Assembly: GCA_950295325.1 (NCBI GenBank)
Contig: OX485804.1
Coordinates: 47,058,001-47,122,000 of the forward strand
Reading direction: 5' to 3'
Length of the DNA stretch: 64,000 nt
Source: Polytrichum commune
Lineage: Eukaryota; Streptophyta; Polytrichopsida; Polytrichales; Polytrichaceae
Positions 2,991-27,500 of this stretch are shown one piece after another. A model generated the notes under the pieces. That model did no database searches and was not told the DNA's origin. It was given only the letters and a program-made list of their open reading frames with translations. Numbering within the stretch: the stretch's first letter is position 1; the number at the start of each line of letters is the position of its first letter. The position numbers and the translations under genes were made by a program.

Positions 2991-3049
2991 GTGCTAATTG
3001 TTTAAAACAAATAGTGGTCTTCACCACTACCCCCCTCTTTGTATTCTAT

Positions 3050-3945: not shown

Positions 3946-4001
3946 AGGCATCTGACAGGGCCTTTGTCAGGTCTCTTTCTTGGTCTAGGCCATATGTCTT
4001 T

Positions 4002-5483: not shown

Positions 5484-6240
5484 TATTATAGGTGATGGTA
5501 TGAATCTTGTATCTTTAGTTTGTGCTAGAATGAAGTGTGTAATGACAATGTTTTTGTAGTAATTGTGTTGATGTCTTGTGTAGTATTCTTTTAGTAGTTT
5601 GATGTTGTGTTCAATTATTGGAGATTGGTTTAGTGAAAATAGTTCACGTTATGACATCCATTTGTTGTATGTTATGTTGTTTTGTAATGACCATTGACAT
5701 AGGTATGTGTTATATTTTCTTGTTATTTTATATTTATCTTTTGTTTCGTTTTATTCGTGATTTAGTATAGTGTGTATGGGAAATCTTAGTGGGTTATTTT
5801 TTATGTTGGGAGGTGGATTGGTTTGTTTTATTTGTTGTGGTAATGGTGGGCGTAGAGGATTTTCTAGTATTATGGGTGTTAGTTCTTGATTGTCTATTAT
5901 ATATATTGGTTTGAGTGCGCGTATTTGTGGATGTCTGTTACATGGAGTCGTGCAATCTTGATTGCAGCTTGGGTAGCAAAAAAATTGTTCCGCTATGTTT
6001 AGTGCATTTTTTTCTAATTTTGTTGGAGTTTGTAATAGATTTGGAAGTCCTTTGGTGACATCAAGTTTGTGCCATTGGGAAGGGTGGTGTGTTTAATTTT
6101 ATGTATGTTGTGAATTAGGAGTTTATGCAATAGTTTAAGAGATAGTTTGGGGTTTAAATGTGGTAGTTCTACTATGACACTAGATTTCTATTCTTGTTCT
6201 AGTTCTGTCATATGGAGTTGGAAGTTTTCTTCTATGCTTT

Positions 6241-7256: not shown

Positions 7257-8247
7257 TTTTGGGTATTTTAAGAGGCCTAAGTTACTTTAAGTTAAATGCC
7301 CTTTGGAATATGCATAGGACAATGTATCGGCCCAAGTGCCCTTCCACATGTAGTTACACTTTCACTGATACGTGCAATTAGGTTGCTTTTACAAATAAGT
7401 TGTCTTTTCTACCACCAAATACCACACAAGCCCATCAATTAAGTGGTGGGAAGGTATTGGTTATGACATTCAAAGAAGTAACATCTTATTAAAAGCTACA
7501 AAAAAACTATGAAATTTTTTTCTAGAAAAAACTTTATAAAAACATCATCTCTTATTCTATCATATACAAGTCAAAACATATAGCTAAAGCTAGCTCCACG
7601 AGGAACATAGATGTACGAGTGGTTAAAGAAAATAAAGTAATATACACCTCATTAGAATGAACTACCTCGGCTTTGGTAACGATTTCCCAAAAGATTGTCA
7701 AATATAATAATAATATGGAATCAAAATGTTTGCCATTTTTACTATGATTCCAAGCCTAAAACTTCATCTACAAATAAAAAAATTACCAATGAACGTGTAG
7801 AAACAACAAAAACTTAACAAAATGTTTGATAGATTTTGATAGAAAACACTATATTCGTTAATCGGAGACTTTCGAAAGTCTCAAAATAAAATCTGCCCAT
7901 AGTTTGGGATGCCAATATTGTGGGCATACGGAATATTGGGAACATCAAGAACATAACGATTTAAAAAGTTGCACGTAAAGAATATTCTTATTTCTAAAAA
8001 TAAAGAATGTCAATTAAAATGCAAACGTGAGCTCCATGTGGAAAATAACAATCGAATCTAAAAAAACAAATGGTTTATGTCATTATAGAGTTTGGGGTGC
8101 GCATCCCATAAGTAAGGCTCTTATGAATTTGGATGGCACATCCCAAACGTATACCACAATGGAGTGTGACAAGTCCATGAAGTCTATTAAAAACCAAGTC
8201 TACTAAGCATCCATGTTTTTCGCCATGAACTCCCACCTATGTTATGT
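7226..8247. other. Non-coding; contains a short dispersed palindrome
   Basis: An 18-bp perfect palindrome, GAGACTTTCGAAAGTCTC, is at about 7865-7882. Its flanks (CACTATATTCGTTAATC before, AAAATAAAATC after) match 25.96-26.13 kb and 55.76-55.93 kb, where it lies beside LINE sequence. No gene was seen. Confidence 0.45.
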
Positions 8248-11200
8248 TTACACATCTCCGTCTTCCGCTTCATATCCATTATCGGCGTCATTTTCCGCAG
8301 CTGCAATACGTGCCAAGTTGTCTTTGGCAAAATCTATATGTTTTTGGGGGATGGTCATTGTTTCTGTTTTGGAACCTTTGCGCGGCTTCCAAGCACAAAG
8401 TATAGTATCCGTGTTTATCCAAACCGGTGTGTACGCTGAGTCCACTGTCCACTTAAAATTCTTTTTGGTGTCCCAACCTAAATAAGTGCGTAGCACGTTC
8501 TGGTCTTTAGTACTTGGACGACAATATTCCACCTCAATCTGACGAAAGTTGGGGCTAGTTCGAACAAAATTGGGTGAAGACAATGCTTTCATCAACCAAA
8601 TTGGCTTGGGATGTTCCTCATCCCCTGCTCGTACAAGGACCAAATAACCTTCATGGCAATCAACACCTACACGAAACGACGGTGCCGGTCGATTGCAGGC
8701 AGGGCCAACGTAATGCTCGTCCATTGCGAACTCTTCACGAACGTCTCCATTGCTAAAAACCATGGTGTCGGACTCGACAACCGTCAAACGACTTTGTGGC
8801 CAAAATCCTTGTGTTAAAGTTGTACGGGTGTCGCCACCAAGTGTCATTAGGGCCGAGCGAATGCGATCCCAATACGCAATCAAAGGTTCATGAGTATCTC
8901 TAACACGTCTAGTGATGTCCTCCTCACACAACTCTTTCCAATATTCAATGAATCCGGATATGCCTTTGATGATTTCCGGCCCATTCCTCATGGGGTCGGG
9001 TTTGCAAGGCTTTGGGTTCCCATCCGGGAGCAAACATTTCCCATCATTGTCTTGACGCCATACGAGAATACCATCATCCGGTCCCCAATTAGGAGATGTG
9101 CACAAAAACTTAAATTGCATGGCTGGGAGACCATCATCCCTTATATAGAATCGGAATTGTTGTGCTTTGGTATGCCCCACCAAACGGTCCCCTCCCTTCA
9201 ACATGTATGACTTGATGAAGGCCTTGAAATTTGGTACTTCCTCAATTATGTGCGGAATTACTGGCATATGGTCCAAATCCATATACGATTTCATAAGAAG
9301 AGGTATGGTTGGAAAATCTTCTTCATGCAACTTCATGCTCCACCGTCCGAATGATGCATCAATGTCGTCGTGTGTATGTCCCACCATAAAAAACGACACA
9401 AACACCTCCTTGAAGATTCCTTTCGCCACGAGCAATGACCAAAAACAAAATACGTATCGACATTTGTTGTCTTTCGCGCAATTATCAAGTTGAACGTGAA
9501 GAGTTGGGGCAATGGTTTTGTACAAATAGGTTCTCCCGGTGGTTCTGGCAATGACGACATACAAACCTCCTTCCCCGCAAGCACTGCTTCGTAAAGGGGT
9601 GTCGTTCCACAACCATCAAAAAGTGCACGTGATGAATGTAACGGCGGCTTCTCCAGATCGCGCAAGAGTTTTGCAAATGAACCCACTGTGTGGTTAGCAT
9701 CGCCAGGGTAAAAATCCAACCCATAATGGGCATACTTTACGTCTCCATGGCCGTGGGCAATCATCCCTGCGAAAAAAAACAAACGATGTTTGAACAACAA
9801 CAATAACAACGACAACTCCAAACGGAGGTATGAAATTGGACATTTGGCAAACACACCCAGTAAAATTTGAGAGAATTTGAATACATATTTGTGATTCAAT
9901 ACAAACCTGTGACAGATACGGGCAACTTGAAGAGACCATCCGTGGCCTTAATTTTGCGTGCATAACAAGGGCATGCGGTCTTGGCGTGGTCCATTTTATC
10001 ATGGATGATTGTTAGAACCTCTGTAGGCCTCATTATGGATAGAACACGGTTCTTGTAGTAATCTTGACGGTGAGCCTCTTGGTTGTTGACATGTTCAATA
10101 TATTTTGCTTGGTGTCTAGTGTGGGATTCGGTGCCTATGGGGTGGGCGTCTCGAAGACCTTTGTATTTTTCACACGTCGTACACCTAGCGAACTTGTCCC
10201 CAGGTCTCTTCAAAATGTATTCGGCAAACTATTGGTTTTTAATCACACTCAACTTGGACAAAGAAATGGGCCCACATCCCGCTATGCGACCCACTTCATT
10301 GATGTCCGTTAATATGTTCTTCCATTTTGTACCCGTGGGCAATACCATTTGTACAACTTTCTCCCCTGACGACAATGTCCTCGTCTTGTGGGGCATTGCA
10401 TCGGCCAATGGGACTATGATGGTGGAGAGTGTCGCGGAGGCTTGGAGTGTAGCCTCCCTAGGTTTCTTTGTGCCCGAATTGCCATGAAATCGAGAGCGGC
10501 GACCGAACAATGAATATTTTTGAAACCTATAAAAGTCAGACTTTGACACGGCGTGGATGGTATACCACGCAGTACAACACACTTCCACATTCTCAAGTGT
10601 GACCACCTTACGCCCATGGGTGTCAATGTGGACATTTCTGTGGACCTCGAGTTTCTATGCCGATCTCATACGGAAATCCGCAAGCCACATCTCTTGACGT
10701 AGGGACTTAATTTTCTCCCGCGGGAAAAAATTGGCAACATTTCCTCTCGCAACAGTCTTTGGCGGACACAAGATGGATAGTTTCGTCTCCCAATATGCGA
10801 TCCCGTCGACGTTCCTTATCTCCACGAGGCACACGGTTAGAATCATATCTGCGTAGGCCTTTGCGAGGACGTATTTTGGTCAACAAAGCTAATTGCGTTT
10901 GATTATGGCGGCGCTCATGGTCCAACAAGCTTACTCCGTCATGGAGAACCCGACAAAGAGGCCATCGACGCAAGGAAAATCTCCATGTCACCGGGACGTC
11001 AAGCGGAAGCAAAGAATTCAAGATGCACACACCCACATCATCGGGACCAAGGGGGTTGGCATCAACACAATCACGGGGATCAGAGTTTCTACATATGCCA
11101 TCTGCCACGGGGACACCAACATCATTGAAAAGAACAACATCAAGGCCCACCCATTGCTCCCTACCGAAACCGGCACATAACGGAATGTCATCATTGTCAT

Positions 11201-11371
11201 CCCCGGAACGTATAGATTGTTCGTGCGCTTCAAATGATTCGTGGGAGGATGCATCCACAAACCCACCCATGGCATTTGCCATGCCATGACTACCCGCCGA
11301 TGGCGAAGATAGTTTACAGTCATCATCGGAAGAGGAAGCTTTTGTAGACAACTCCAATGAACTATATCCAA
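8248..11371 (-). pseudogene. DUF7869-type transposase-like gene, broken
   Basis: The minus strand encodes a long protein of the family now called DUF7869 (name from memory). The hallmarks are HVQLDNCAKDNK and FFMVGHTHDDIDASFGRWS in the segment 9612-8248, preceded by FARCTTCEKYKGLRD and DKMDHAKTACPCY (10213-9908). Upstream come KPREATLQASATLS (10606-10229) and an acidic N-terminal part (11371-10850). An intron is likely at 9906-9767 (CAG|GTTTGT...TTCGCAG|GG). Damage: in-frame TAG at 10655-10657 and at 10229-10231, a one-base loss in a C run at 9506-9509, and a frame change near 10.85 kb. The Asp and His motifs suggest an RNase H-like nuclease fold. The copy at 47.6-49.2 kb lies inside terminal inverted repeats, which supports a transposase role. 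Confidence 0.7.
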
Positions 11372-11529
11372 CGTGCATCGCCATCCAACCTAAACAAACC
11401 ACCAATAAAATGACCAACACAACAACCACCGCAATGCATACAAAAGTGGATACGAGATATGCCTACATATATGGCTCAAAAATCACAAACAACTCTCGCC
11501 ACACCGTTGCGGGACCTCACATATGAAGA

Positions 11530-11728
11530 CGAACATGCGTTCGACAACAGCTCGATGACATGCAAATCCTACACGGGACTCAGACGTCCCTGCACAACGG
11601 AACCCCATTCCGATATATATTACCCGTGAAGGGCTTTGGGTCAAGTCGCCAATAAAACATTGGAAGGGTTGTCCACCACCAAGGGACAACACAAGCACAT
11701 ATATTCACGAACGCGCGGACGAAAATAT
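11530..11728. repeat. Two degenerate copies of the TACGAACG palindrome
   Basis: 11530-11543 reads CGAACATGCGTTCG, one change from the 14-bp palindrome core. 11701-11728 keeps matching outer arms (ATATT...AATAT) around CGAACG-CG-CGGACG, with four mismatches over 28 bp. They look like old or decayed members of the array that starts at 11836. Confidence 0.55.
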
Positions 11729-11835
11729 CAACCCAATATACAATAAAATCTAAATGGGACATATTATAAGAGCATCTAAAATATACTTGCCACTTTATCC
11801 ACATGCAGTAAGCATCATATTTGATGGGCGAGTGT

Positions 11836-12609
11836 TTACGAACGATCGTTCGTAAGTTCCAGCCGAAACTTAGGGGCGGATGCAAACGACCGATCATCTG
11901 TATGTCATAGCCGCGACAGTGTTTGGAAAAAATGATTGGACACGTCCGAATAGAGATATCTATAGCCACGTTACAGGGAAACATGTTATCCAATAACTAG
12001 TGGAAAATGACAGTCGACATCTATCACTAAATCATGATTGCATAGATACGAACGAGCGTTCGTATCTATCATAAACACGGTGTAGTCCTCTACACATGCT
12101 TGCGTCAACAGGCCTGTTGGTGGATGCGTGGACGGTGGACAGGTGGTATTTACGAACGTGCGTTCGTAAAATTCAACTAACATAATTCTCCGCGGACACA
12201 AACGGTAGTGAGAAATACGAACGCTCGTTCGTATTTAACTTGCATATTGTTAACGTGGCCAATGCACTGAAGTGTATAAATTAAGGAATGTTTTTTGGAT
12301 TCTTGAAAAATAATCCTAGGTGATATTTACGAACGCACGTTCGTAAATATCCCATCACCAGATGTTCCGTTGGAGAAAACGGTTACACGGGAACTCATGC
12401 GCGTCTGGGTCTTGAAGGTAGATATACGAACGTACGTTCGTATATCATCGACACAATTTTCGTGCCTAGTTCTGTCTATAAGGAACTCAATGTCGAGTAC
12501 GGTTGTGATCAACTTACGAACGCACGTTCGTAAACAACTCATATCATATCGATGTACCTATTGTACATGTGCTACCAACTCACGTTTACGAACGTGCGTT
12601 CGTAAACGT
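11836..12609. repeat. Palindrome array A: eight TACGAACG-N2-CGTTCGTA copies
   Basis: Eight palindromes in 770 bp, full extents (spacer): 11836-11855 (AT), 12042-12069 (AG), 12149-12170 (TG), 12213-12236 (CT), 12322-12351 (CA), 12421-12446 (TA), 12514-12533 (CA), 12582-12609 (TG). The inner arm ACGAACG is invariant and the spacer is always two bases. Arms reach 9-14 bp, and the outer parts differ between copies (ATAGAT, AAAT, GATATTT, GATAT, ACGTTT) but are mirrored within each copy. Centres are 65-210 bp apart and spacer DNA is unrelated between units, so this is neither a simple tandem repeat nor a CRISPR array. It lies upstream of the DUF7869 pseudogene (-) and about 4 kb upstream of the ParB-like gene (+). 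Confidence 0.9.
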
Positions 12610-12759
12610 CCGGTATTTGCGGCGGTATATACGGGTATGTGTAGTCTGTAGTGGACCTGGGTGGTGTAGGGTTGGCGCACAAGAAAATGGTTTGAGCGCG
12701 TTCCAGTCAGGTCTGTGGAGCGCACACTTGGATGTGCCGCAGAAAAGAGCTCTTCTGTG

Positions 12760-12789
12760 GGGGGGAAGAGCTTTAAGTACCTTCCCCCC
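12760..12789. repeat. G/C-run hairpin
   Basis: GGGGGGAAG and CTTCCCCCC form perfect 9-bp arms around a 12-base loop. Role unknown. It lies just after palindrome array A and is unrelated to it in sequence. Confidence 0.6.
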
Positions 12790-13924
12790 GATGGTTCAAA
12801 ATCCCTTGGATGCTATTTAAAAAGCGGATTCCCGCCGCCTACTTTGACCTAACAATATGCCATTCCATCCATGCGCAATATATAAATAGCATTATGTATG
12901 GAACATGTCTTGCGTGCACGCAACATATTGTAAATCTATAAATCCGTCGCACACCTTAGTTGTTACCAAGGTCGCACGAAAATATGTCTATATGTCTATA
13001 TGTTTATATTTATATATATATATATGTATATTTTACTATTTTACTATTTTATATATGGGTTATTATATTATATATATATAGGTTGATGGGTTAACATTGA
13101 GTATTAAATTATTTACGACTAAGGTGTGAAGTCCAAGTGAATTGATGAAGGTCTAAGTGATATATATATTCACACACACAATGAGGTAAGAGTGGCTAAG
13201 AACATATTGTGGAATCCCCTAAAATTGTAGGTATCATATGATTCACATAAAAAAAATGCTTGTAATATGGTCACCAAGTGCATGAATACCAATAAAAAGT
13301 CGCTTAATCCATAATGGCTTGTGCTAGGTAGATTGAGGACATTTGGAACTGGAGGCTCACCAAACATCGGCCCATATTAATATGAATCATTGTTGCAATT
13401 CATCATTGGTGAAAATTAAAGTTTAATGCACTAGTATTCGATCGTTAGTTCAAGTTGACACCTAATTAAATGACTTGACGTCCTATTGGAAATTCACTTT
13501 AGGTCCACCATGGTGTGAAAATGGATAACGAATTTGGAATGGTGCATACAATAGTATGCACTTACAATTATATATTTGTATTATTTGCAACAAGAAGTAT
13601 GTGCATGACCATAGCTTAACTGTTGATTTAAGTTGAAGTCTTATACCATTCATGTTATAATAAGACTAAGTGTGTATTGTGTAATCAAATTGCACTCAAA
13701 ACTATTAAGGTGAAAGGGCTAGCATTTCAAAATTCACTCTTCACCCCCTAAACCAATGTTTTATATCAAAATGATAATTATTGGCATGAGTCTAGATTAT
13801 TATAGTTGCTATGACCCAAATAAAGCAATTTCCAATCGAACCAACATTGGTAGACCATTTTGACATGATGCGCATAGACCACAACATGGCCATATATAAG
13901 AAAGGTTGGTAAGATAAAAAGATG

Positions 13925-13966
13925 TAGGGTTTAGGGTTTGGGGTTTGGGGTTTGGGGTTAGGGTAT
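13925..13966 (+). repeat. Interstitial plant-type telomeric repeats, degenerate
   Basis: About six units alternating TTTAGGG and TTTGGGG run in one direction. This is the plant telomere motif, here inside a chromosome arm, probably left by repair or transposition. Confidence 0.7.
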
Positions 13967-14150
13967 AGAGTTTGTGAAAGAGTTGTCTATGTGGTTTGCG
14001 GGCTTAGGGTTTAGATTGTTACTTCAATGCATTATATACACAAACAATATCGACTCCTAAATAATCCATATCGCACTAACTTAATTTATGGGAAGCTCAT
14101 ACTATCAATTGATACTACTAGCAAAACATGCGACCACATGGCTAAAATAT

Positions 14151-14496
14151 ACTACACTAAATATGATATTTAGTGTTTGATTGTATAATATAGTGTTGTT
14201 ACGCTATCATGGTCAACACTAAATTTCAATTCTTTGATAATTAGTGTTGGACATATTAAATGGGCCACCACATTTCCTACTACCATGTCCTTTATGCTTT
14301 TATCATTGTTAATTGTTTTTTTCATATTAATTTCCTTACACAAAATTTGTGCATGCGACATCCACATATTACCATTATAGTTGACATTAAGTGTTTGAGT
14401 TCGCAATGAATAGTAGTTACCTTCATAGGGTTAGTGATATTTAGTGTACTATGCGTTTGTATTTAGAGTATCTAACACTAAATATCATATTAAGGG
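14151..14496. mobile_element. MITE with TACACTAAATATGATATTTAG ends
   Basis: The left end at 14151-14183 and the right end at 14472-14493 are inverted copies (AATATGATATTTAGTGTT). Several AGTGTT motifs lie inside. The same family occurs at 59074-59453. There is no coding capacity, and I could not fix a target-site duplication. Confidence 0.55.
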
Positions 14497-14882
14497 TGGT
14501 TCAAGCTAACACCTCATGAAATTAATGACATCGTATTGAAAATTGAATTTTCATCCACCTCTTGTGGAGAATCAGATAGCCCCTCTCCACAATTTAAATT
14601 GAGTCATTTATATATGTAATATTTATTTGAGGAACCATTGAAGAACTTTAAAGATGTCTCGTTCATGAAAACGACATTTGCATCTTGGGGGTGGATTCTT
14701 CATCGAAAACCTACTAAATGACATGAATTGTTAAATACAAATTATCTGAACATACTTTTCTAAAATATGTTTACAAGGAATCCATATGTCGAGGTACTAA
14801 GGGGATACGGAAAGTCAAATTTATGTCCCTAAACTAAGCTCCTCCCATCTCCTATTTCATTTTTCCTGAACCCTCATCCCTC
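14497..14882. other. Non-coding
   Basis: No gene or structured repeat recognised between the MITE and the C-rich repeat. Confidence 0.4.
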
Positions 14883-15130
14883 CATGTCCCCATGGTATCC
14901 CCTCATCCCCATCCCCTCCCCCTCCCCTTCTCCCATCCCATCCTCATCCCATCCCCTCCCCATCCCCTCCCCATCCCCTCCCCATCCCCTCCCATCCTCA
15001 TCCCCTCCCCATTCCCTCCCCATTCCCATTCCCCATTCCCATTCCCCATCCCCATCCCCATCCCCATCCCCATCCCACATCCCCATCCCCCTCCACATCC
15101 CCATCCCACATCCCCATCCCCCTCCCCCAT
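14883..15130. repeat. (CCCCAT)n-type microsatellite with G-quadruplex potential
   Basis: About 250 bp of CCCCATC/CCCCTCC units. The minus strand is therefore made of closely spaced G3-G4 runs, enough for several quadruplexes, and the plus strand could form i-motifs. All frames are open for 60-100 codons on both strands, which is a composition effect. It lies just upstream of the probable 5' leader of the ParB-like gene. Confidence 0.9.
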
Positions 15131-15620
15131 CCCAGCCCTTGCCAGTGGCCACTAGCCACGTGGCCGCCGCTTGGAAACCCTAGCGGCGCCGGCTACCTCC
15201 CCGCGCCCCTCTCTCTCCTCCTCATTTGTCATTTGGAGCAGAGGAGGAGAGGAGCTCTTAGGTGCGGCGAAGCCCTTGCCAATTTTAGAGCCTCATTGTG
15301 AATGTTGTTTTGTTGTGTTGTCAGAACCTTGAGAATAGGAAAGCTTGAGAGTAGGAAAGGTTGAGAGGTTGAGAGTTATAGAAAGCTTGAGTTTTAGAAA
15401 GCTTGAGTTTTAGAAAGCTTGAGAGCTTGAGTTTGAGGTTGAGAGGTTGACAGTTTCAGAAAGGTTGAGAGCTTGAGAGCTTGAGAGCTTCAGAAAGCTT
15501 GAGTTTTGTGAAGCTTGTGAGTTGTGTACATCAGGGTTTGTGTAGGATTTGCATATAAGTTGTGAAGGCTTGAGAGTGTGACAAAGTGAAGGCAGGAGGA
15601 TTTGTGTGCAACAATTCAAT
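15131..15620 (+). promoter_or_regulatory. Probable promoter/5' leader of the ParB-like gene
   Basis: GC content rises sharply at 15130, where the GC island begins. 15331-15530 is a purine-rich direct-repeat tract built on AAAGCTTGAG/GAGAGCTTGAG. It ends with AATTCAAT|GTGAGT at 15621, a strong plant 5' splice site. The next matching 3' splice site, TGCTCTGCAG at 16560, is directly followed by the ATG of exon 1. I infer a leader exon ending at 15620. No clear TATA box was seen near 15.2 kb. Confidence 0.35.
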
Positions 15621-16560
15621 GTGAGTACAGGTTTCCTTTACAAATCATTCCTTCACAATATGAAATTGTTGTTTGATGAATTCCTTGTGATTTGTTTTCT
15701 GCATTATGAGGTATGTCATGTTTTGTATGAAATAACACTTTCCTCTTCATTCTGAACTATCAATCACTGACTCGCAATTTTGTTCTGATTCCATTTTTCA
15801 CTTGTGTTTCATCAATCTGATCACGAGTTGCAGGATCATGAACAATGCCAGATTGCAACATTCATACCAACATTTATACGTATACGTATATATATATACG
15901 TATATGTACGGATATATATGTACATAAATAAATATACCATTTCCTAATCCCAGATGACCACATTTACGAACGTTCGTTCGTAAATGTGGCGTGAATACAT
16001 GCCTTACCCCACAAACATATACGAACGTGCGTTCGTAAATACGCACCTCACCCTCCATTTTTACGAACGCACGTTCGTATATTCGTCTATACCCTGTACA
16101 TCAGAAAATCCTCAAATCCAATTACACATACAAAAATACGAACGAACGTTCGTAATCACAAACTATAACAATATACCAAACCCTTCATGGTAATTGTCTG
16201 CATTTCCAAGTAGCATTATTTACGAACGCACGTTCGTAAATAAGAACTAAAGTATTAATTCACCTATTTAGAAGATGCTCATGGAAATTCGAACAACCCT
16301 CGTGGAAATTAGATAACCCTGGACAACTCGTGGACTTGTTTAGAAACAATACGAACGCACGTTCGTAAACTTGTGTCAAATACACCTTAGCAACCACATT
16401 CTTTACGAACGATCGTTCGTAAATGAAATCAGCAAAGACATCATTACAACTTCTCACGGGTATCTATAGCCAGAGTTCAATGATTAGTGTATATGATTTG
16501 CTTTGTCAATTACGAACGCTCGTTCGTAAACACAATACTAAATGTTTATGTGCTCTGCAG
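15621..16560 (+). other. Predicted 5'-leader intron carrying palindrome array B
   Basis: Bounded by GTGAGT at 15621 and CTGCAG at 16555-16560. It holds eight TACGAACG palindromes, with a further AT-rich TATACG tract at 15878-15930. The intron is predicted from splice sites only; no transcript evidence is available. Confidence 0.4.
15958..16529. repeat. Palindrome array B: eight copies in 570 bp
   Basis: Extents (spacer): 15958-15989 (TT, 15-bp arms beginning CCACATTT), 16020-16037 (TG), 16062-16079 (CA), 16137-16154 (AA), 16216-16243 (CA), 16350-16367 (CA), 16402-16423 (AT), 16510-16529 (CT). Some copies have only the 8-bp core arms, others extend to 13-15 bp. Centres lie 42-129 bp apart. 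The sequence between palindromes is AT-rich and unrelated from one interval to the next. Confidence 0.9.
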
Positions 16561-17853
16561 ATGGCCAGACCGAGCAGAAGCGCCATTGAGATGTTCGCAG
16601 TGCAGATAGATCAACTACCAGAGTCAGTGTCCGACCCCAACGGAAACGATAATTATGTCCCCAAGGAGGACTTCATAGGGGAATGGACGGCACTGCCAGA
16701 GAAGACATCAGACGGTCTTTTCTGTCTTCGCTTCACATACGAGCTGGAAACGACGCCGGACCAGCCAGAGCAATGGGTGCAGATGAAGACTTGGGAAGTA
16801 GAATCAATTGAGGCACAAGGAGATTATGTGATTCTAGACATGAAAAACAAGAAGGATCACATTAACCTATTGTTAGAGTACAGGAGACATAGTTTCTCCT
16901 ACACATACGCGGAAAATAACGTAGTGGCTGATGCCAAACACTTCCTCAAGGACCTCTTCACGAAGTACGCCCTGAGCTCGTACTGGACAGCAAGGAAGTT
17001 GGCCGCGCTCTCCTTGAATATCTCCAAGTACAATAGCGCGGTCGCGGAAGCCAACAAGAAGAAGAAGAGCCCACGGAAACCATCCGCATCCGGGGCAGGA
17101 GGATCGCGAAGTGCACCCAAGCAGGTGCCTTCCGCGAGCAGGGTGACGGAGGGTCCCAGCTGACATTCCACGCCATCGAAGAGGTCCCGGGACGAAATGG
17201 AGAGGTCTGGGGTAACATAGGGTGCTGAGGTGAGCTCTCCTCCCGTGATGCCAACCCCTTTAAAGAAGGGTGAGAATCCAGATGCGGTGAAGGCAACGAA
17301 GATCCTACGAGATTTCAATAATTACTCGAAGGATTGCTGGCCCATGGGGCGCCACTTCACGTTCAACGTGGACTGCTTCAAGTGCGAAAAGTCACCCAAC
17401 AAGTGGGTGGTAAGGTCTCGCGAGAGCGGTGGGGTGAAGTGGCAGATAAACAACCTCATGAATAACGTCAAGTGGGATAGACAGACAGTCTGCGTCATGC
17501 CCAAGGGGCTGACATTCCGACCGACAGAGGTGGATTGGCCGCGAATCCAGAATGGAGAATTCTGGATTATAGATGGTCAGCACAGCTTGGAGGCGTCGCA
17601 ACAGATCCTCAAGGACGACAACTTCCAGCACGAGCTGAAGGCTGACCTGCGGTACTGGAAGGCGTTCTTGGTCTGGTCGGACGATTGGGACAAGCTGCGC
17701 AAGATTTCAACCTTCCTAAACTCGGGGAACAAAATCAAGGCGTTCGAGGCTTCGTGGGCGGCTAACATAGTGGCTGCCAGAGACGTCTGGGTGGCACACG
17801 GATGCCCACCAAAGGAAAGGGAGAACGCCAAGAACCAGTCTCCCCAATGGAAG
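16561..17853 (+). CDS. Exon 1: N-terminal region and ParB/DGQHR-like domain
   Basis: Starts ATGGCCAGACCGAGC right after a 3' splice site. Codons 1-195 are a globular region I do not recognise, ending in a Lys/Ser-rich tail. After the two stops at 17161 (TGA) and 17218 (TAG), the same frame continues. Codons 338-342 read DGQHS within FWIIDGQHSLEASQQI, followed about 45 codons later by STFLNSGNKI. A hydrophobic strand, DGQH[RS], a helix and then a LN-x-x-x-K-type segment is the pattern of the ParB/sulfiredoxin-fold DGQHR family (ParB N-terminal domain, DndB-like proteins), which bind nucleotide and DNA. Between the stops the frame reads TPSKRSRDEMER, like a nuclear localisation signal, so I favour decay by C-to-T change over an intron there. 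Ends AAG|GTGAGT. Confidence 0.55.
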
Positions 17854-20800
17854 GTGAGTTTACGAACGAACGTTCATAAAGTGTTAGATTCATGAAAACT
17901 TCAATTACATACTCAATTTACGAACGTGCGTTCGTATTATGTGCAACACTGACATCTTGTTTTGTGCAGGCATTTTGCGACGCGATGGTAGACAAGTTTT
18001 CTTCCATCGATATGAAGTCCACCACCACCAAGTCAGTGCTTGAGCTGAAGGGTGAGCTCAGACTGATCTGCTGCAACAGGGACACCTGGGACTTGTGGAC
18101 ACAGTTTTTTGATGCACACAGCTCGGGCGATTTGGTCAATCCCGACACCGAGGAGAAGTACAGCACGGAAAAAACCGATGAGGCGCCCCCACTACTGAGG
18201 GAGTTCTTTAGACACCTCCAGGGATTGACGGAGTCAGAGCTGAAGAGGTGTGCGATTCATGTTCTTGGGAACACCGTGGGAAGAAACCTTCCCTATCCCA
18301 AGATCTTTTTGAAGAGGCCAAAGCACAAGCCCGGCACGTACTCTATCAAGGAGTGGTGTGACCACCGGAAGCTGAAGACTGCTGCCATGAGAGAATTGAG
18401 CGTACTCGCACCAGAGTACAAAATCTTTGAAGTCGACGGCGACATCAACTGGCCGCAATGGCAATTGTTAAAGGTCGACTACAACATCAACGGAGCCTCC
18501 ATGCGCAGTCTGGTCAAGGAGCACGCCTCGGTTTTGAAGTTGAAGGGGAACAAAAGGACTAAGAAAACCGACACGGATCCCCACGAGGTAATGTTGTACA
18601 TACAATTTTTGGAGAGGAAGAGGAACGCCACATTCGAAGGGGTGGCAAGGTTTTGCGTGATGACCTCCGGCGTGGAGAGGGTCACATTTTCCAAGTGGGA
18701 CGGCACCATAAGCAGGGCCGAGGTGAGGGAGGATCGACGGGGTTGCCCTTTTGCCCTGATCGATTTCAGGGGGATCCCGGGTGCGTCAAGGCAGGGGGGG
18801 AAGGACATTCCCTTCTACAACCCCTTCATGGCCAAGTTCATGGAGTTCAAATCGCCGGCCATGAGGGAGCCACACGTTTGGCTGTGGATAGTCGAACAGG
18901 AGAAGCTGTCGGTCGTCACAGAGTTGTACGAGCAGAAGATCAAATTCGAGTACAACATCTTCCACAGCACGTACGTGCCAGCGAAGACGGAGGGGATCGT
19001 GGCCATCAACGAGGCCAGGGGCAACAAGCAAGTGGGAGCGGTCAGCCTGATTTTCTTGACGTACAATGAGCTTAGGAATGGGCGACCGCCTATCAAGGCG
19101 AACAACACGTTCAAGAAAATCTACAGCATCCCGCATCCCCCTCCCAAGGATCTGCTGCAAGAGACCCTCTACACCATCTTCCCCGCCATGGAACTCAGGA
19201 TGGAGTTCTACGTCTCTATATTGCAGAGTCTGGTTATAAGTGGAGAGACGGTATACAACGTATGTGGAGGCTCCAAATTCATGTATGCGGCAATGGTAAG
19301 TTGTCCAGACTCCATTTATGAACGCTCGTTCATAAAGTTAACCAACTTCTCAACGCATTGTTTCAAAGTCGCTGCACGTGACGCATTGATGTTTACGAAC
19401 GCTCGTTCGTAAACATAACCCCCTTCGTAATGTAATGCTTGAAACTCGTTGCACACCACGCTTTGATGTTTACGAACGTGCGTTCGTATTTTCTGACCTT
19501 ATTGCTCTCTTCTCACAGATGATGGGTCTCGTAGTCAACACCTTCGTTGACGCTATCGACGAAGAAGACTTCAAGTTCCACCGTGCGAAGGCGTCGACGA
19601 TGGACCTCAAGGACATCTCTGTCCCAAGGATGGACTTCAGTATGCCCGCCGACGAGGGCATACCACTCCACGATTCAAAGGACGACGAGCCCGCCCCCTC
19701 CGCCAACGTGGACGCCATTCTGCAGTCCTTCGACGTACCCCCGCTTCGGATCTTGCCGCCAACGACAGATCTTCCCGACCCTCAAGGGACTCCGGGTGGT
19801 TATACAGGGTCGTCCGCGGGGACAACCCTGGACCTCCTCCCCGCGCGAACGTCTCTTGCGGAGCCTTTCGGAACGCCAGGCGGATGCTCGACGTCACAGT
19901 CTCCAAGGCCCGCCGTGGTTCCGAAGATGGAAACCCTGGACATCCTCGACCAACGCTCGCGTCCATCTTTGGACCTCTTCCGCAACACGAGGAGGAGGAT
20001 GAAGAAGACTCCCTACGTGGAGTTGCCGCCGGGAGCAATCATCGAGGTCTCCGACGAGGACGAGGGGGACATGGACATCATGGCCAAGCTTGGGGTGGAC
20101 TACGACAAGAACAAGCGGGTGAAGGAGGAGGCGCTTACCGTCTCTGAGCTCAACGCCAAGCTGGAGGCGAAGATGAAGGAGGAGATGGCTGCAGCCCAGG
20201 AGGAGAGTGCCAAGCATCTGGCCAGGCTGCAAGAGCAGCTGAGGGAATCAGCGGCCAAAACTGACGCCATCTTCGAGATGCTCAGAAACATGCAAAGCTT
20301 CTCTGCGCCGGTCCAGCAACCTTACCCCTTCCCCCCTGGAGGATACCCCTCACAGCCCCCACCTCCAGTCATGTACCAAGGAGGGCCTTCCCACCAAACA
20401 GCGCCACACCCAACGCCGGCGGGAAGTCCATTGCCCCCGGAGGTGACGGCGACCGCCTCAACCTCCCACGATGCAATCACGGTGGCGCTAAGGGAGGATG
20501 AAGATTTACGAACGCGCGTTCGTGAATCTTCAGGTCCGGCAGTCCTCACCCCTCCCCCTTCAAGGGTAGGACTGCCCACAGACACGGACACGACCTCTTT
20601 CACCGTCGTCCCAAGGGTTGTAGATAGGAGGGGCGATGACACTGCGCAACACACTGACATGGTCATTGTGGAGGAAACGCAGGGGAGCCCCAATGACTCG
20701 GCAGGTCCGCGTGGGATGGTCGTGGAGAGCCCTGAACAGGAACGACATCCATCCGCGCACATGGAGGATGTCCGCATGGAGAGACTCGACCTGGGCGGGG

Positions 20801-22313
20801 ACGACGACGTGGAGCTCATCCAACAGACCCAGTCGTCTCAGGCGGAGCGTCCGGCGGAGGTCATGGATCCAGAGGCTGTTGCCCCAATGGATATTACGAA
20901 CGCGCGTTCGTTAACCAAAGAGGTAACTCATCTCTGAGAATGCCAAATGTTTTACGAACGCGCGTTTGTAACATCACTAACCCCCGCGTTGTGTTCTTGG
21001 CGCTTCAACTCCATCGACATCACGTTGCCCGCGCGAGCCTTTTTCTACGTGATCCCTTGGGCCGATCAATTTTGTAGGACACTGAATTTTTTCCTTAGGA
21101 AATTTTGATAGATTATCACGCGAGACAATTGTACATATTCACCGAATTAATATATGAGCAGACGATCTCTGCTCGCATCACCACAACTTATTGCATATTC
21201 TCGCGTCTTGTGTTGTCTGTGCTCTTGCGCGTCTTTGCATTCTTTGCATACACACCTCACTCACTCACGCTCGTTCGTAAAACTGTGCGACCCCCTCTCG
21301 ACTTCCTTCGCGAACGAGCGTTCGTATATGTATGCATCCGCGCTCACGAACGAGCGTTCGTAAATGATGCGCACCGCCCCCGCAGCCTTCATTCACGAAC
21401 GCTCGTTCGCAATTGTGCCCTTGTGCATATTTCCTTGAACCCTCCTTACTTCCTCCTCTTTTCCCATAATGCATCGTCTTTATTTTGAACGCAAAAATTT
21501 CATTATTGGATCATAGAATTAAACTAGTCGCGTTGTTCATCACAGGACCCCCCGGAGATAGGTCGCAACCCCTCGACCAGTGGACCTCGAACCCGGAACA
21601 AGCCTTTCATAGTTTTTGACCTCAACGGGGTCTTGTGTCACACCCAACACATCCCCAGGGTTCCCACGCGTCCCTTCCGTCACCCCGACGAAAGGGACTA
21701 TGACGGCGAGCTCGACACCCTCATAAACCGCAAGGCTGTCCGCGCCCGTCCCGGCCTGCGCGACTTCCTTCGCGAGGTGGTCGAGTTCGCCCACGTCGTT
21801 GTGTGGAGCTCCATGGTCATGGACAACACGGAGCCCATCGTCGACTTCTTGTTCCGTGATCTCCCGCGCCCTTGCCTCGTCCTCGGCCAAGAGGAATGCG
21901 ACGAGCTGCTCGACGAGAAGGGCCAACCGGTGCCCAAGTTTGGCGGTCGAGGCGGAGGACAACAGTTCCTCAAGGTCCTCCGCTCAAGACTCTGGCAAGG
22001 CGTCCCCCGTCTGCAGGGGACGCCCCACGGGTGGTGGCCGACTCCTGAGAACACCCTCCTCATCGACGACAGTCCCACCAAGAGCGTGTTGAACCCCCCG
22101 GGCAACGTCATCTTCCCGGACACTTGGACTGGCGATAGGCAAGACACCTTTTTGGTCGATAGGCTAGCCCCCTACCTTAGAAGGCTCGTGCTCCACGCTG
22201 GTAGCATCCCATTTTTTGTTAGGTCCAACCCCTTCGGCAATGCGGCGCTAAGCCCCCGCAATAATGTATATAAGAGCATCATGAGGCTCGCCAAACTCAA
22301 TAAATTGATTTGA
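16561..22313 (+). CDS. Composite gene: ParB/DGQH-like, methyltransferase-like, coiled coil, FCP1-like phosphatase
   Basis: Four GC-rich open blocks join through phase-0 GT-AG introns: 16561-17853, 17970-19295, 19519-20922, 21546-22313. Introns are 17854-17969 (GTGAGT...GTGCAG), 19296-19518 (GTAAGT...TCACAG) and 20923-21545 (GTAACT...TCACAG). All three hold TACGAACG palindromes. The last exon has no ATG of its own near its 5' end, which favours one fused protein of about 1,600 codons. If intron 3 is retained, translation stops at 20935-20937 and the phosphatase is separate. Two in-frame stops (17161, 17218) break exon 1 unless a 78-nt phase-0 intron (17143-17220, GTGACG...ACATAG) is spliced out. 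I infer a mobile-element or selfish-system gene; I know of no exact counterpart. Confidence 0.5.
17859..17936. repeat. Two palindromes filling intron 1
   Basis: 17859-17880 (AA spacer, one mismatch, CGT to CAT in the right arm) overlaps the last base of the GTGAGT splice site. 17919-17936 (TG) has only the 8-bp core arms. Together they take up a third of this 116-nt intron. Confidence 0.85.
17970..19295 (+). CDS. Exon 2: region with permuted methyltransferase-like motif order
   Basis: 442 codons, open throughout, phase 0 at both ends. Codons 264-268 read IDFRG after CPFAL, and the exon ends GETVYNVCGGSKFMYAAM. In beta-group (N4-C/N6-A) amino-methyltransferases the catalytic [DN]PP[YW] strand comes first, and an H-x-x-x-K...GD-x-V-x-D-x-F-x-G-SG-x-T-x-x-AA segment comes last. 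Here the last segment is well mimicked (HPPPKDLL at about 19132, then GETVYNVCGGSKFMYAA), and IDFRG sits where DPPY would be. ParB-like plus this methyltransferase type is a known bacterial and phage fusion. With DPPY absent the domain is probably not an active methylase. Assignment is inference. Intron 2 cuts right after the motif-I-like helix. Confidence 0.45.
19315..19488. repeat. Three palindromes in intron 2, spaced exactly 77 bp
   Basis: 19315-19336 reads TTTATGAACG-CT-CGTTCATAAA: both outer CpGs have changed, and symmetry is kept. 19389-19416 (CT, 13-bp arms with ATGTTT) and 19471-19488 (TG) follow. Centres are 77 and 77 bp apart. The flanks of the second and third are similar (TTGATGTTTACGAACG, and CGCTGCAC against CGTTGCAC), so at least one step was a local tandem duplication. 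Confidence 0.85.
19519..20922 (+). CDS. Exon 3: disordered linker with coiled coil
   Basis: 468 codons, phase 0. It begins MMGLVVNTFVDAIDEEDF, completing the domain of exon 2. It then becomes Pro/Ser/Asp-rich with NTRRRMKKTP followed by an acidic patch (EVSDEDEGDMD). Codons about 198-255 form a charged helix with heptad spacing (KRVKEEALTVSELNAKLEAK, LARLQEQLRESAAK), a likely coiled coil for dimerisation. A Pro-rich stretch follows (YPFPPGGYPSQPPPPV), then an acidic tail. Two TACGAACG palindromes are in frame here. The exon ends AAAGAG|GTAACT; if not spliced, translation stops five codons later. No enzymatic domain was seen. Confidence 0.5.
20501..20530. repeat. Palindrome inside coding exon 3
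   Basis: 14-bp arms beginning AAGATTTACG with a CG spacer and one T/G mismatch. It is read in frame as DLRTRVRES without breaking the protein, so it was inserted or formed inside the coding sequence and tolerated in a disordered region. Confidence 0.8.
20896..20911. repeat. Second exonic palindrome, near the exon 3 splice site
   Basis: ACGAACG-CG-CGTTCGT, perfect over 16 bp, read as TNARS. It lies 11 bases before the predicted 5' splice site at 20923. Confidence 0.8.
20952..21409. repeat. Palindromes in intron 3, partly decayed
   Basis: 20952-20971 (CG, one mismatch: CGTTCG to CGTTTG), a right half-site only at about 21268-21280, 21311-21324 (AG), 21346-21361 (AG), 21396-21409 (CT). The last three keep the CGAACG-N2-CGTTCG core but have lost the outer A/T of the arms (GCGAACG, CACGAACG). 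All lie inside the 623-nt intron 20923-21545. Confidence 0.8.
21546..22313 (+). CDS. Exon 4: FCP1/NIF-type HAD phosphatase domain
   Basis: 255 codons plus a TGA stop at 22311. KPFIVFDLNGVLCHT (about codons 19-33) is HAD motif I. The nucleophile Asp is kept, and the second acidic residue is Asn (DLN instead of DxD), as in some plant FCP1-like proteins. RPGLRDFLREVVEFAHVVVW then SSMVMDN supplies motif II (Ser). LLIDDSPTKSVLNPPGN followed by DTWTGDRQD supplies the double-Asp motif and the usual C-terminal FCP1 pattern. The length is normal for an FCP homology domain. This family removes phosphate from Ser, typically on the RNA polymerase II C-terminal domain. The exon follows a clear 3' splice site (TTCATCACAG) and has no ATG near it, so it is probably fused to the upstream exons. 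Confidence 0.7.
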   Translation, partial: DPPEIGRNPSTSGPRTRNKPFIVFDLNGVLCHTQHIPRVPTRPFRHPDERDYDGELDTLINRKAVRARPGLRDFLREVVEFAHVVVWSSMVMDNTEPIVDFLFRDLPRPCLVLGQEECDELLDEKGQPVPKFGGRGGGQQFLKVLRSRLWQGVPRLQGTPHGWWPTPENTLLIDDSPTKSVLNPPGNVIFPDTWTGDRQDTFLVDRLAPYLRRLVLHAGSIPFFVRSNPFGNAALSPRNNVYKSIMRLAKLNKLI

Positions 22314-22424
22314 AATGCCTCCATGTCTTTGCTTGTTATCATGTGGTTCACATATCTAATGCTTGCCCCGTTTTTGGATGTCTTTTGTTGTTGTGATTGT
22401 TGTTGTTCTTGTTCTTGCCCATAG

Positions 22425-22949
22425 TCTGCCCCCATATGCGACGCCCCTGTGGTCGACGGCTCTTCCCGTCCCCTCTCGCTCCCCGCATCCCCTTCCCGCG
22501 ACATCACGGACTTCCAAATGCCATCCCTCTACCACTTCTCGGCGGTCGACGCGGCCTCGGCCGTGGATTACTCCCGCGACGTCGGCATCGACGACGGCGT
22601 CGTCAACAGCCCGCCCCCAGCACTTGTCCCCCGCGCGTACGCCCCGTCGCCCTCCCCCCTCTCCAAGGAGAAACGGACGCTCGTTCGTTTGGGACACCTC
22701 TCGCCCTCGAGGGACGACGCCGTCGCTCGTCGCGGGCCGAGCCGCCGTCTCCGCATGGAAGGCCCCCGTTGCCACACCTCCCCCGCCGACTCCGTTCCTC
22801 CCCCCGCAACGTCCTCCGCGATCGTGGGCCCTCCACGCCTCGACTCCCCCCCGCCATCCAACATTGCAATAGTTCCATCGGCTCCGGATGCTCCCGTCGA
22901 CGCCCCCCTCGTTCCCACCGTTCCCCGCATGGACGTCCCCAAATCCAAG
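22425..22949 (+). CDS. Pro/Ser-rich reading frame downstream of the phosphatase
   Basis: Begins after a 3' splice site-like GCCCATAG and reads SAPICDAPVVDGSSRP... for 175 codons to AAG|GTGCCC (22949). It is rich in Pro, Ser, Asp and Arg, with no recognised domain. Several frames are open in this GC-rich DNA, so coding status is uncertain. A degenerate palindrome at 22671-22690 is read as KRTLVRL. It may be a further exon of the composite gene or a separate gene; no donor in the right phase was found between 22200 and 22424. Confidence 0.3.
22671..22690. repeat. Degenerate palindrome, last of the series
   Basis: AAACGGACG-CT-CGTTCGTTT: 9-bp arms, one mismatch, and the terminal TA/TA of the core replaced. 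It keeps the two-base spacer. Confidence 0.6.
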
Positions 22950-23101
22950 GTGCCCTCCTCAACCCTAAACCCCTTTCCCGCTTTTGCTTTCCTTGTCTTC
23001 CGTTTGCGTGCCGTTCTCTTTACGAGCGCCCATCCCAAACCGCCCTCATTATTTTCCCCACTCCATTCCTATTCTTATCTTCCTATGACGTTGTTTCGCA
23101 G

Positions 23102-23410
23102 GTGGCTACCCGCTCGCTTGGTGCCCGGCCCTCCTCCACGTCCTCCTTGGATAGGCACGCCCTCAAGGCCGCATCTTCCGAGTCCGATCGTTGTCTGGCC
23201 CTCCGGAGAAGCGCAAGTTGTTCCCTTTCGCAAACGCCCTCGTATTCTACTTATAATACCACCTCGTACAATTCGGGAGCGCGTCCTGAAACATGCAAGA
23301 ACGACACATATTCCTATCCAGGCAACACACAAGGATTCAGTCGTGGGCCTGAGATTTTTAGAGCCATGGAGGCCGCCAAAAAAAAGGACTTAGCCGCAAA
23401 AAAAAAATAG
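23102..23410 (+). CDS. Possible terminal exon of the Pro-rich frame
   Basis: A 152-nt intron (22950-23101, GTGCCC...TTTCGCAG, phase 0) would join 22949 to 23102. The exon reads VATRSLGARPSSTSSLDRH and ends with a Lys-rich tail before TAG at 23408. The alternative frame at 22950-23393 is also open and contains RKRPRILLIIPPRTI, so a frameshift or a different splice is possible. GC content drops to AT-rich just after 23410, the right limit of the GC island. Confidence 0.25.
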   Translation: MATRSLGARPSSTSSLDRHALKAASSESDRCLALRRSASCSLSQTPSYSTYNTTSYNSGARPETCKNDTYSYPGNTQGFSRGPEIFRAMEAAKKKDLAAKKK

Positions 23411-23879
23411 TGGGTCGGACTAGTGTGACTAGAAGCGTACTAGTGGGACGGACTCCCTAAATGGGCTTAGGTGTAGAACATATTTAAGTGCTTACTTTCT
23501 ATGCTATTCCAAGTTACTCAAGACATTGATGGTATTTCCATTATAATTGTATTTCTATCCCAATTAATTCATTCAACTTCCATTCATTCTTCGCATCTTT
23601 CCTTCCATTCATAACGAGTTGTCATTTCATACGCAACTATTTTCATGTATGCCGCACATTTTTGTTCACTTCCATGCCTTTATGTATAATAATAGTAGCA
23701 TACCATTATACATATGGGATTTTTAGTCGTCATTACTGGTCCATTTTTGAAATGTACATCCTTATATAGTCTCATAATCAACAAAAAGTCTCCAAATACC
23801 GAATATAGTGTTAGAACAAAGAAAATGTAAAATGCCAAACCTTATTTTCCATATGTCCTTCAAATAAAGTGGCCCTCCA
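23411..23879. other. Non-coding AT-rich sequence
   Basis: No gene seen. It separates the GC island from the next decayed retroelement. Confidence 0.4.
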
Positions 23880-26219: not shown

Positions 26220-26530
26220 CCAAATGAACCCGCACACATCTTCACATACTGCCTTGATGGTCTATATGTGATCAAAAACCAAATAAAACATCCCACACTA
26301 CACAACAACCACCCCAATAAAACCATACTAGAAGAAACAATTAACTCCCTTATACAAAGAACTCAACTCACAACACTATACAAAGTAAGAGCACATGCAA
26401 ATATCAAAGGCAACGAGGAAGCCTACACACTTTTGCTAAAGAAGGTACATCAAGAGAACACTACAATGCCTCACAACCACATGAATTTGCCCACTCAACA
26501 CCGTACTACTACCAAAGAGACGAATGACCA
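26220..26530 (+). pseudogene. RNase H remnant of copy 2
   Basis: Reads NEPAHIFTYCLDGLYVI, then TTLYKVRAHANIKGNEEAY. This is the same domain as at 4.0-4.5 kb. The D of FTDS is again Y, and the last Asp is lost (EEAY). The first half of the domain is missing or scrambled by the inserted fragment at 26.0 kb. Confidence 0.6.
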
Positions 26531-26533
26531 TTA

Positions 26534-27134
26534 ATGGGAACAACTCCCAACAAAGAACCTATTAAATTCCTAGAAAAACATCTCAGGAAATCCAATAAGA
26601 ATAAAAATCTAGAATTGATCCCTATACTATATCCCAAAATAGATAAATGGATAGTCAACGAGAAAATAAATAATGAGCTATCAAAAATTTTGGACAAACA
26701 AAAACATAATAGACTCTCAAAAAACATGTCTTCGAAAATTGAGACACTATCAATACATGGAGAATGCCAGGAAACAACTGTTCTTTAATATGGAAGCCTT
26801 TCCATCAATCACATTGCCCATATGTAACTCCCAACACCCTGATACATGGTTACATGTACTTCTAAAGTGCAAACAACACCACGTACATGCCCTCCAAACC
26901 AAAAGACATAATAAAGCAGTATGGGAATCAAGAAAACTCATAGTGGCATCAAAAAAATCAAGATGCTATGTTCTCATAAATGCAAGCACATTCAATAATC
27001 CCCCAAAAAACATTGTCCCTCCATGGCTATTACCTTGCACGTGTGATCAACAAAGATGCCATTGCAATGCCATATTCAAACCAAACCTTCTATGTGTGAA
27101 AGGACTACCATATCAGTCTCCACCACTAACTTAA
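26534..27134 (+). pseudogene. C-terminal tail of copy 2 with Cys/His motif
   Basis: Two overlapping frames (26534-26788 and 26673-27134) give PICNSQHPDTWLHVLLKCKQ then HALQTKRHNKAVWE, then PPWLLPCTCDQQRCHCNA. The C-x2-C...H...C pattern followed by RHN-x-x-V is typical of the end of RNase H-bearing retroelement polyproteins. A frameshift near 26.7 kb splits it. Confidence 0.55.
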
Positions 27135-27500
27135 CCTAATGACAACTTAACAATACAGTTCATTGAATTTACATACTGTTATGATAAAGTACTAAATGAA
27201 ACTATAATCCAAAAAAATAAAATACAAACCATTAATAGACAATTTTAGTAACAGAGGTTGGAAGATAGATCCACTAATAGTCATCACGGCAGGTGCTAGG
27301 GCAGCCACACACATTCCTTCTATATAAAGTATTAAAACAACATTCAAAATCCCTAAGCTAAACATCAAATACACATTTGAGGCAATCAATGTCATCGCCA
27401 TACAACATGCTCTGTCCATAATTCTACACAAAACGAGGATAGAAAACAATGAACCACTACCAATAGACACACAACTACCATAGCAACCCCAAATATCTAC

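Follow-up and report, generated by a model that had tools for sequence, protein, structure and literature searches.

The palindrome array in a 64,000-nucleotide stretch of the Polytrichum commune genome (contig OX485804.1, positions 47,058,001 to 47,122,000; this whole stretch is called the window and its numbering is used below) belongs to a mobile DNA transposon, which carries a minus-strand gene with a DUF7869 domain, a plus-strand gene for a protein with the motif DGQHS and a gene for a NIF-type HAD protein. The palindrome changes in step with the DGQHS protein between two sister families of this transposon. The reading favored here, with a probability of roughly two in three, takes the DGQHS protein for a palindrome-binding regulator of its own transposon's genes, probably an anti-silencer akin to the VANC proteins of Arabidopsis. 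The parts of this reading differ in firmness: the DGQHS protein is very probably the binder and nearly as probably acts on expression, while anti-silencing or activation as the form of that action has about an even chance, against a lesser one for repression.

The ends of the element were set by comparing copies across the 408-Mb genome. Its inverted-repeat ends start with AACACTATATTCG, the genome has 336 + 352 occurrences of the end pattern, and 4-bp target duplications accompany all six insertions in which both ends were read (AGAA, ACCT, CAAG and ATGT in family 1, to which the window copy belongs, and ATGG and ATAG in family 2). The preliminary description of this DNA had suspected a mobile element from the array, and these inverted ends and duplications bear it out, along with 150 scored copies genome-wide (of 954 candidates) whose DGQH domains are 91–100% identical; groups of copies with identical scores and frames point to a recent burst. 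Scored copies number 93 of 1969 candidates for the DUF7869 gene and 149 of 1265 for the HAD gene. In one copy (L003/L004, C3:7.04 Mb) the distance from the DUF7869 gene to the DGQHS gene is about 14 kb greater than in the C1 copy; its similarity ends upstream of the palindrome array next to the DGQHS gene (array B), and the extra length fits a nested insertion. CpG observed/expected is 0.96 in the element versus 0.48 in the rest of the window, which is only suggestive as a hint of the loss of DNA methylation in trans that marks VANC systems.

Sites of the form TACGAACG-N2-CGTTCGTA number 29 in the window at up to three mismatches, 19 of them exact, against a mean of 0.08 and a maximum of one in shuffled windows. 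Twenty-eight lie at 11837–21411, in agreement with the earlier count of about 28 palindromes at 11.8–21.4 kb and none elsewhere, and the last is a poor match with three mismatches at 22672. The coordinates first assigned thus enclosed a real array but only the middle of the feature, as the mobile element spans 7845–23812. Perfect 8-N2-8 palindromes of any sequence number 24 in the window; none of the three outside 11.8–21.45 kb is of the TACGAACG kind, and one of them lies just within the left end of the transposon. The presumed 5' sides of all three element genes carry sites, and none of the 19 exact sites falls inside modeled coding sequence, which makes up 41% of the element (the model leaves out an open reading frame at 22.4–23.4 kb).

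The association between palindrome and transposon extends to the genome at large. Among the 4680 exact sites, the first 100 listed, all near the start of contig 1, lie within this transposon group, 96 by position (placed by eye beside element genes or ends) and four by sequence; these four, in stretches L055 and L056, are in or beside element sequence that was matched with the palindromes masked, the match in L056 being at 71% and starting about 150 letters from the site. A second pattern gave 66 sites genome-wide, 50 of them listed: 41 were judged by eye against the listed element genes, two of them by a gene at a distance of 5 to 10 kb, and the nine without a near match, fetched as eight stretches (L057–L064), contain element sequence in eight of eight. 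The preliminary description had proposed a genome search for a link between palindromes and DGQH genes, and palindromes detached from the transposon, which would speak against such a link, are absent from the 100 listed sites. A non-autonomous relative, L010 (C1:638001-648000, with ends at C1:639070 and 648560), has 33 exact palindromes in expanded tandem repeats; neither a DUF7869 nor a DGQHS gene was found in it, and its HAD fragment is 72% identical. The stretch 8150–10000 beside its array, over which copies were compared (the arrays being counted in L010 itself), occurs in 32 near-full-length copies at 97–100%, L010 included. That the arrays were kept and multiplied in an element lacking both genes speaks for a benefit gained in trans.

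Sister elements of 17.3 kb (L033/L034 and L035/L036), reached via the shared ends, have the same gene order and carry, near the same genes and introns, the palindrome TACGGACG-N2-CGTCCGTA in place of the family-1 palindrome. The two differ at one symmetric position, and sites are called A-type or G-type according to the letter there. The 23 family-1 loci have 176 A-type sites and no G-type site, and the 20 family-2 loci have 116 G-type and six A-type sites (Fisher test, 2.7e-76, with copies taken as independent despite shared descent). The latter loci comprise the two sister elements and 18 more loci fetched; L048 and L049, in which the DGQH frame is shifted or broken, were kept in the count, and L010 and L055–L064 stand outside it. 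Genome-wide, pure sites number 4680 A-type and 1382 G-type, with 118 mixed (54 + 64); no site has C or T at the switching position, the reversed control pattern having 37, and none of the 53 single mismatches in family 1 falls at that position. Between the families the DUF7869 protein is 85% identical and the HAD protein 62%, with the parts of the DGQHS protein at 36, 51, 54 and 32%, of which the DGQH domain accounts for the 51%; a match list of 150 scored rows (of 936 candidates) holds 122 of family 2 at 74–100% identity and 28 of family 1 at 51–52%. Since palindrome and DGQHS protein change together, we infer strongly that an element-encoded protein recognizes its own palindromes, the central claim of the preliminary description; the matched change makes this claim well supported, though not proven, and suggests that each transposon family recognizes its own DNA.

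The palindromes are under constraint. Array B and intron 1 of the DGQHS gene in 23 loci hold 242 sites, 8 to 15 per locus, 176 of them exact. In an alignment of 22 loci (L011 left out), letters off the column majority in intron 1 amount to 8 of 703 in the core, 278 of 1307 in the 15-letter flanks and 15 of 88 in the N2 center, and at the last array-B site to 6 of 352, 137 of 649 and 13 of 44, respectively; at these two places, the cores are 1–2% divergent versus 21% for the flanks. The contrast shrinks among close relatives, where the core and flank counts are 2/416 versus 19/780 in a group of three copies and 1/224 versus 3/408 in a pair. Arm covariation past the core, which is inflated by related copies, is weak in family 1 and stronger in family 2, where arms (e.g., at L033:4672) can be fully complementary up to 27 letters from the N2 center, with sequences that differ between sites.

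Such symmetry raises the prospect that the palindromes act as stem-loops in transcripts or introns, and they are indeed present in the DGQHS introns, with family-2 arms extending the symmetry. Among the 53 family-1 single-mismatch sites the pair is kept in sense RNA in 28, in antisense RNA in 15 and in neither in 10; however, the sense excess is mainly one A-to-G change at position 2 that is common to related loci, and it falls to 18 versus 15 of 41 in family 1 and 15 versus 12 of 33 in family 2 once each change with its context is counted once. C-to-T and G-to-A single mismatches are even, at 12 versus 12, and an N2 loop is too tight unless a base pair opens. With no clear strand protected, DNA is the likelier working form, and a role as RNA hairpins is held to be unlikely.

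In the model of this analysis, the DGQHS gene has three coding exons. A 5' intron probably holds array B: a donor-like AATTCAAT followed directly by GTGAGTA stands upstream of that array in 18 of 23 loci, and CAG immediately precedes the DGQHS ATG in 20 of 22. The motif is at residues 338–342 of the exon-1 frame (A1 numbering), exactly at the codons first reported, with the correction that two stops in this frame leave the gene of the window copy broken there. The exon-1 frame is free of stops over 431 codons in 14 of 22 loci (window included, L011 left out); as a single fixed frame was used, L021 and L024 may owe their five stops apiece to the choice of frame. The DGQHS protein is itself under constraint, the ratio of nonsynonymous to synonymous change (dN/dS) in its DGQH domain being 0.014–0.031 in five between-group comparisons with computable dS (1.0–3.0) and 0.055 and 0.147 in two closer pairs; in three further between-group comparisons synonymous sites are saturated. 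Its N-terminal part (window 16561-17160) has a weak match, at an E-value (E) of 0.0011, to the phage family phrog_21482 of unknown function, and the N-terminal part of the family-2 protein (L034:596-1885) has a weak match to YEATS that is below the cut-off (E 0.015).

In Salmonella, the DGQHR-motif protein DndB protects palindromes of the form TACG-N10-CGTA in its own promoter (PMC4507180). By sequence comparison alone, both family palindromes fit this site, and the window has 20 matches to it versus 0.2 expected, 19 of which are the exact palindromes; the chance of a fit by a random outer 4-mer is estimated at about 1 in 256, the match having been noticed after the fact. The likeness to DndB thus covers the DGQH motif, the site and the placing of sites next to the protein's own gene (PMC4507180). 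The differences are the fifth residue of the motif, which is S or N instead of R, a profile score far under the cut-off, and the setting in a eukaryotic transposon with many sites, some of them in introns. In set A2, 13 of 14 rows have DGQH and one has VGQH, the next residue never being R. The FxxxN and QR motifs have been named for the DGQHR/DndB family (PMC4619093); the A2 rows have an invariant F and N as FLN or FMN, plus a further N, and mostly RQT at the place of QR.

The NCBIfam DGQHR profile (TIGR03187) scores the DGQHS protein P0003 at 11.8 bits versus a cut-off of 58.85, matches four of 14 A2 members (best E 0.15) and one of 12 A1 members (E 0.09), and has no match in a whole-genome search; Pfam has no ParB match in the DGQHS proteins scanned. 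In the Protein Data Bank sequence search, P0003 alone has one match (E 0.75) and A1 none up to E 10; nine matches of A2 and six of A3 are weak (best E 0.064) and were set aside as chance. The viral contigs, prokaryote genomes and phages searched hold no relatives of the DGQHS protein, and a plasmid search gave two records, both from a single Rhizobium strain and at E 1. The single-sequence AlphaFold model of P0003, with a predicted local distance difference test score (pLDDT) of 33, is uninformative on fold. The kinship to DGQHR/ParB is hence unproven, and the ParB label is best treated as a motif-level lead, which the DndB site strengthens.

The mechanism that would accommodate these observations starts from a division of labor: the putative DUF7869 transposase would act on the inverted ends common to the sister families, and the fast-diverging DGQHS protein would bind TACG-RACG-N2-CGTY-CGTA as a symmetric dimer. 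Its targets would lie on the upstream side of both the transposase gene and the HAD gene, and also within the introns and 5' region of the DGQHS gene itself; its binding would mark the DNA of its own family alone and set the expression of the transposon genes. The most likely effect would be to keep these genes open against silencing, as VANC does on the Arabidopsis VANDAL elements.

The preliminary description knew of no plant system of this kind; on this point it needs amending, as VANDAL and VANC operate similarly (PMC5735166), and the Sola1 transposon of a brown alga is reported to have a ParB-like accessory gene (PMC12477816). In VANDAL elements, introns and the region upstream of the transposase gene carry arrays of motifs whose type differs by subfamily, and the accessory VANC protein diverges faster than the transposase (PMC5735166, PMC10398659). 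The parallel with the Polytrichum element covers a transposon-encoded protein, arrays of short motifs in those same places, a motif type that is family-specific in non-coding parts, a transposase more conserved than the accessory protein, and target arrays in the form of tandem repeats, seen here in L010. The motifs differ, being an 18-bp palindrome here and the 9-bp YAGTATTAY there (PMC5735166, PMC10398659). The proteins scanned here have no DUF1985, DUF287 or Mutator-type Pfam match, and the target duplications, at 4 bp, set the element apart as well. Those of Mutator elements are longer than 4 bp. Among the titles and abstract openings listed on DUF7869, DGQHR, ParB-like transposon genes and 4-bp target duplications of novel superfamilies, with few subscription papers among them, none describes the present system.

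Repression instead of anti-silencing is the main competitor. A DGQHS protein acting as a DndB-like autorepressor would shut down the transposon genes as it accumulates and so limit copy number, and the binding of DndB to TACG-N10-CGTA in its own promoter (PMC4507180), the description of DndB as an ATP-dependent repressor (PMC12704722, PMC10853773) and the presence of sites on what is presumed to be the 5' side of each of the three genes are in keeping with this. However, many sites are intronic, a simple repressor would need fewer than the 8 to 15 that each locus has in array B and intron 1 alone, and the 33 exact sites of L010, the sole non-autonomous relative read, which lacks both genes, are hard to explain by repression; the autorepressor is given a modest probability, clearly below that of the main reading. 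The palindromes might also be additional places for the transposase or a helper to bind, comparable to the subterminal repeats of Spm/CACTA elements, as short clustered motifs in a DNA transposon and the arrays kept in L010 would allow. This is improbable, given that no site, the poor match at 22672 aside, comes closer than 4.0 kb to the left end or 2.4 kb to the right end, that the families have conserved ends and a conserved transposase yet different palindromes, and that a second DUF7869 gene in the window has no such sites.

Capture by the transposon of palindromes used by a host DNA-binding protein is very unlikely: host binding would be compatible with the sequence, but the 100 listed sites are in the transposon group and their sequence changes with the transposon's own protein. 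Least probable of all, to the point of being nearly negligible, is a parS-like role in segregating an extrachromosomal form. The parS comparison in the preliminary description grew out of a cluster of palindromes close to a gene whose product has a ParB-like motif, but the proteins scanned include no ParA-like gene, no P-loop pattern was found in the DGQHS and HAD stretches nor any ParA/P-loop ATPase match in Pfam, and the copies are dispersed insertions with target duplications. DndB, whose published TACG-N10-CGTA site fits the palindromes, makes a better comparison than parS; nothing found points to DNA segregation.

Several observations weigh against anti-silencing by the DGQHS protein, or against the link between protein and palindrome on which it depends. 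The copies share descent, so that the counts of 176:0 and 6:116 are not independent and reflect one clear switch; the six A-type sites of family 2 occur singly in six loci, and the eight mixed sites in 41 loci are all in seven family-2 loci. As the palindromes co-diverge with all parts of the DGQHS protein, and less so with the HAD protein (62%), binding could instead be the work of the HAD protein or of a partner. The excess of flank over core divergence is small in eight window-like copies (core 15/1008 versus flanks 41/1849) and in three other copies (0/526 versus 2/912). The arm symmetry of family 2 exceeds independence at positions 2–5 and 9, which simple dimer binding does not require. 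With palindromes masked, CpG observed/expected inside the element is uneven (spacer 0.44, array B 0.57, array A 1.14, DGQHS exons 0.83), which leaves no clean link between arrays and CpG. To these are to be added the sequence searches and the structure model described above.

A more far-reaching version is possible, if doubtful: the DGQHS protein may belong to a eukaryotic, transposon-borne branch of DndB/ParB-like proteins for which the palindromes would be loading sites, with spreading or clustering that shields the family alone from host silencing. Specificity would reside in one symmetric position (A5/T14 versus G5/C14) co-evolving with the protein, so that sister families could share a nucleus and yet not control one another. 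A survey of the ParB fold has sulfiredoxin as its commonest eukaryotic form, and the stem "transpos" is absent from its main text (PMC12704722). A giant Sola1 transposon of Ectocarpus has an accessory gene with ParB-like and methyltransferase parts, whose product has been proposed to bind its own transposon, with similar algal proteins reported, and the accessible text of that paper names no target site for it (PMC12477816). VirB is a member of the ParB superfamily that works against silencing and not in partition, the difference being that it is bacterial and acts against H-NS (PMC10653881). The Polytrichum element shares with the Ectocarpus one the giant size and a prokaryote-like accessory gene, which runs in the opposite direction to the transposase gene (PMC12477816). 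It differs in that no methyltransferase was found here, there being no Pfam match and no [DNS]PP[YFW] pattern in the stretches scanned, and in that candidate target sites can be named. The target duplication of Sola1 elements is likewise 4 bp.

If the anti-silencing reading is true, transposon self-recognition would have been put together from parts other than those of VANC, and a eukaryotic transposon protein would be tied to the site of a regulator from a bacterial defense system. The genome offers thousands of candidate sites and a natural specificity switch, in which each of two families has its own protein and its own palindrome, the palindromes differing at one symmetric position, with the 118 mixed sites as a built-in control for specificity.

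Table. Coordinates of the transposon and its features in the window
Feature	Position	Strand	Remarks
DNA transposon, ~16 kb	7845..23812	.	AGAA 4-bp duplication at both sides; boundaries by comparison with other copies
Left terminal inverted repeat, AACACTATATTCGTTAATCGGAGACTTT	7845..7872	+	
DUF7869 main exon, putative transposase (P0007)	8251..9615	-	Pfam PF25273 DUF7869, E 8e-34
DUF7869 upstream part, other frame	9333..9947	-	Weak DUF7869 match, profile positions 14-53, E 0.15
Palindrome array A	11837..12604	.	8 exact sites; upstream side of minus-strand DUF7869 gene, as its strand implies
Palindrome array B	15965..16528	.	8 exact sites; probably within 5' intron of DGQHS gene
DGQHS exon 1	16561..17853	+	Stop codons at 17161 and 17218 in window copy; DGQH domain 17230-17853; borders modeled
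DGQHS intron 1	17854..17969	+	Palindromes at 17861 and 17919; borders from GT/AG and frame
DGQHS exon 2	17970..19295	+	442 open codons; L011 84% identical
DGQHS intron 2	19296..19518	+	Palindromes at 19317, 19394 and 19471; borders from GT/AG and frame
DGQHS exon 3	19519..20937	+	Imperfect sites at 20507 and 20895
Imperfect palindromes, n=5	20953..21411	.	1-3 mismatches; between DGQHS gene and HAD gene
NIF/FCP1-type HAD phosphatase-like gene (P0006)	21546..22313	+	Pfam NIF, E 3.7e-16
Right terminal inverted repeat, reverse complement AACACTATATTCGGTATTTGGAGACTTT	23785..23812	-	

The first catalytic motif of the HAD protein and its family-2 relatives reads DLNG, with N where this motif usually has its second D, and the protein may therefore be catalytically altered. 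The second DUF7869 gene of the window, at 47894-49237 (E 1.6e-50), is different from that of the transposon and has none of these palindromes nearby.

Outside the element, an inverted repeat of 67% identity (3045-4292 versus 26223-27467) spans it; these repeats, at 3.0–4.3 and 26.2–27.5 kb, were considered as the element ends and dropped, the true ends being at 7845 and 23812. To the left of the element, an open reading frame in strongly skewed sequence (4776-5648) has a PCIF1_WW match at E 4e-12, and the window begins with a minisatellite (1-547) made of 30-bp units within a duplicated 229-bp unit.

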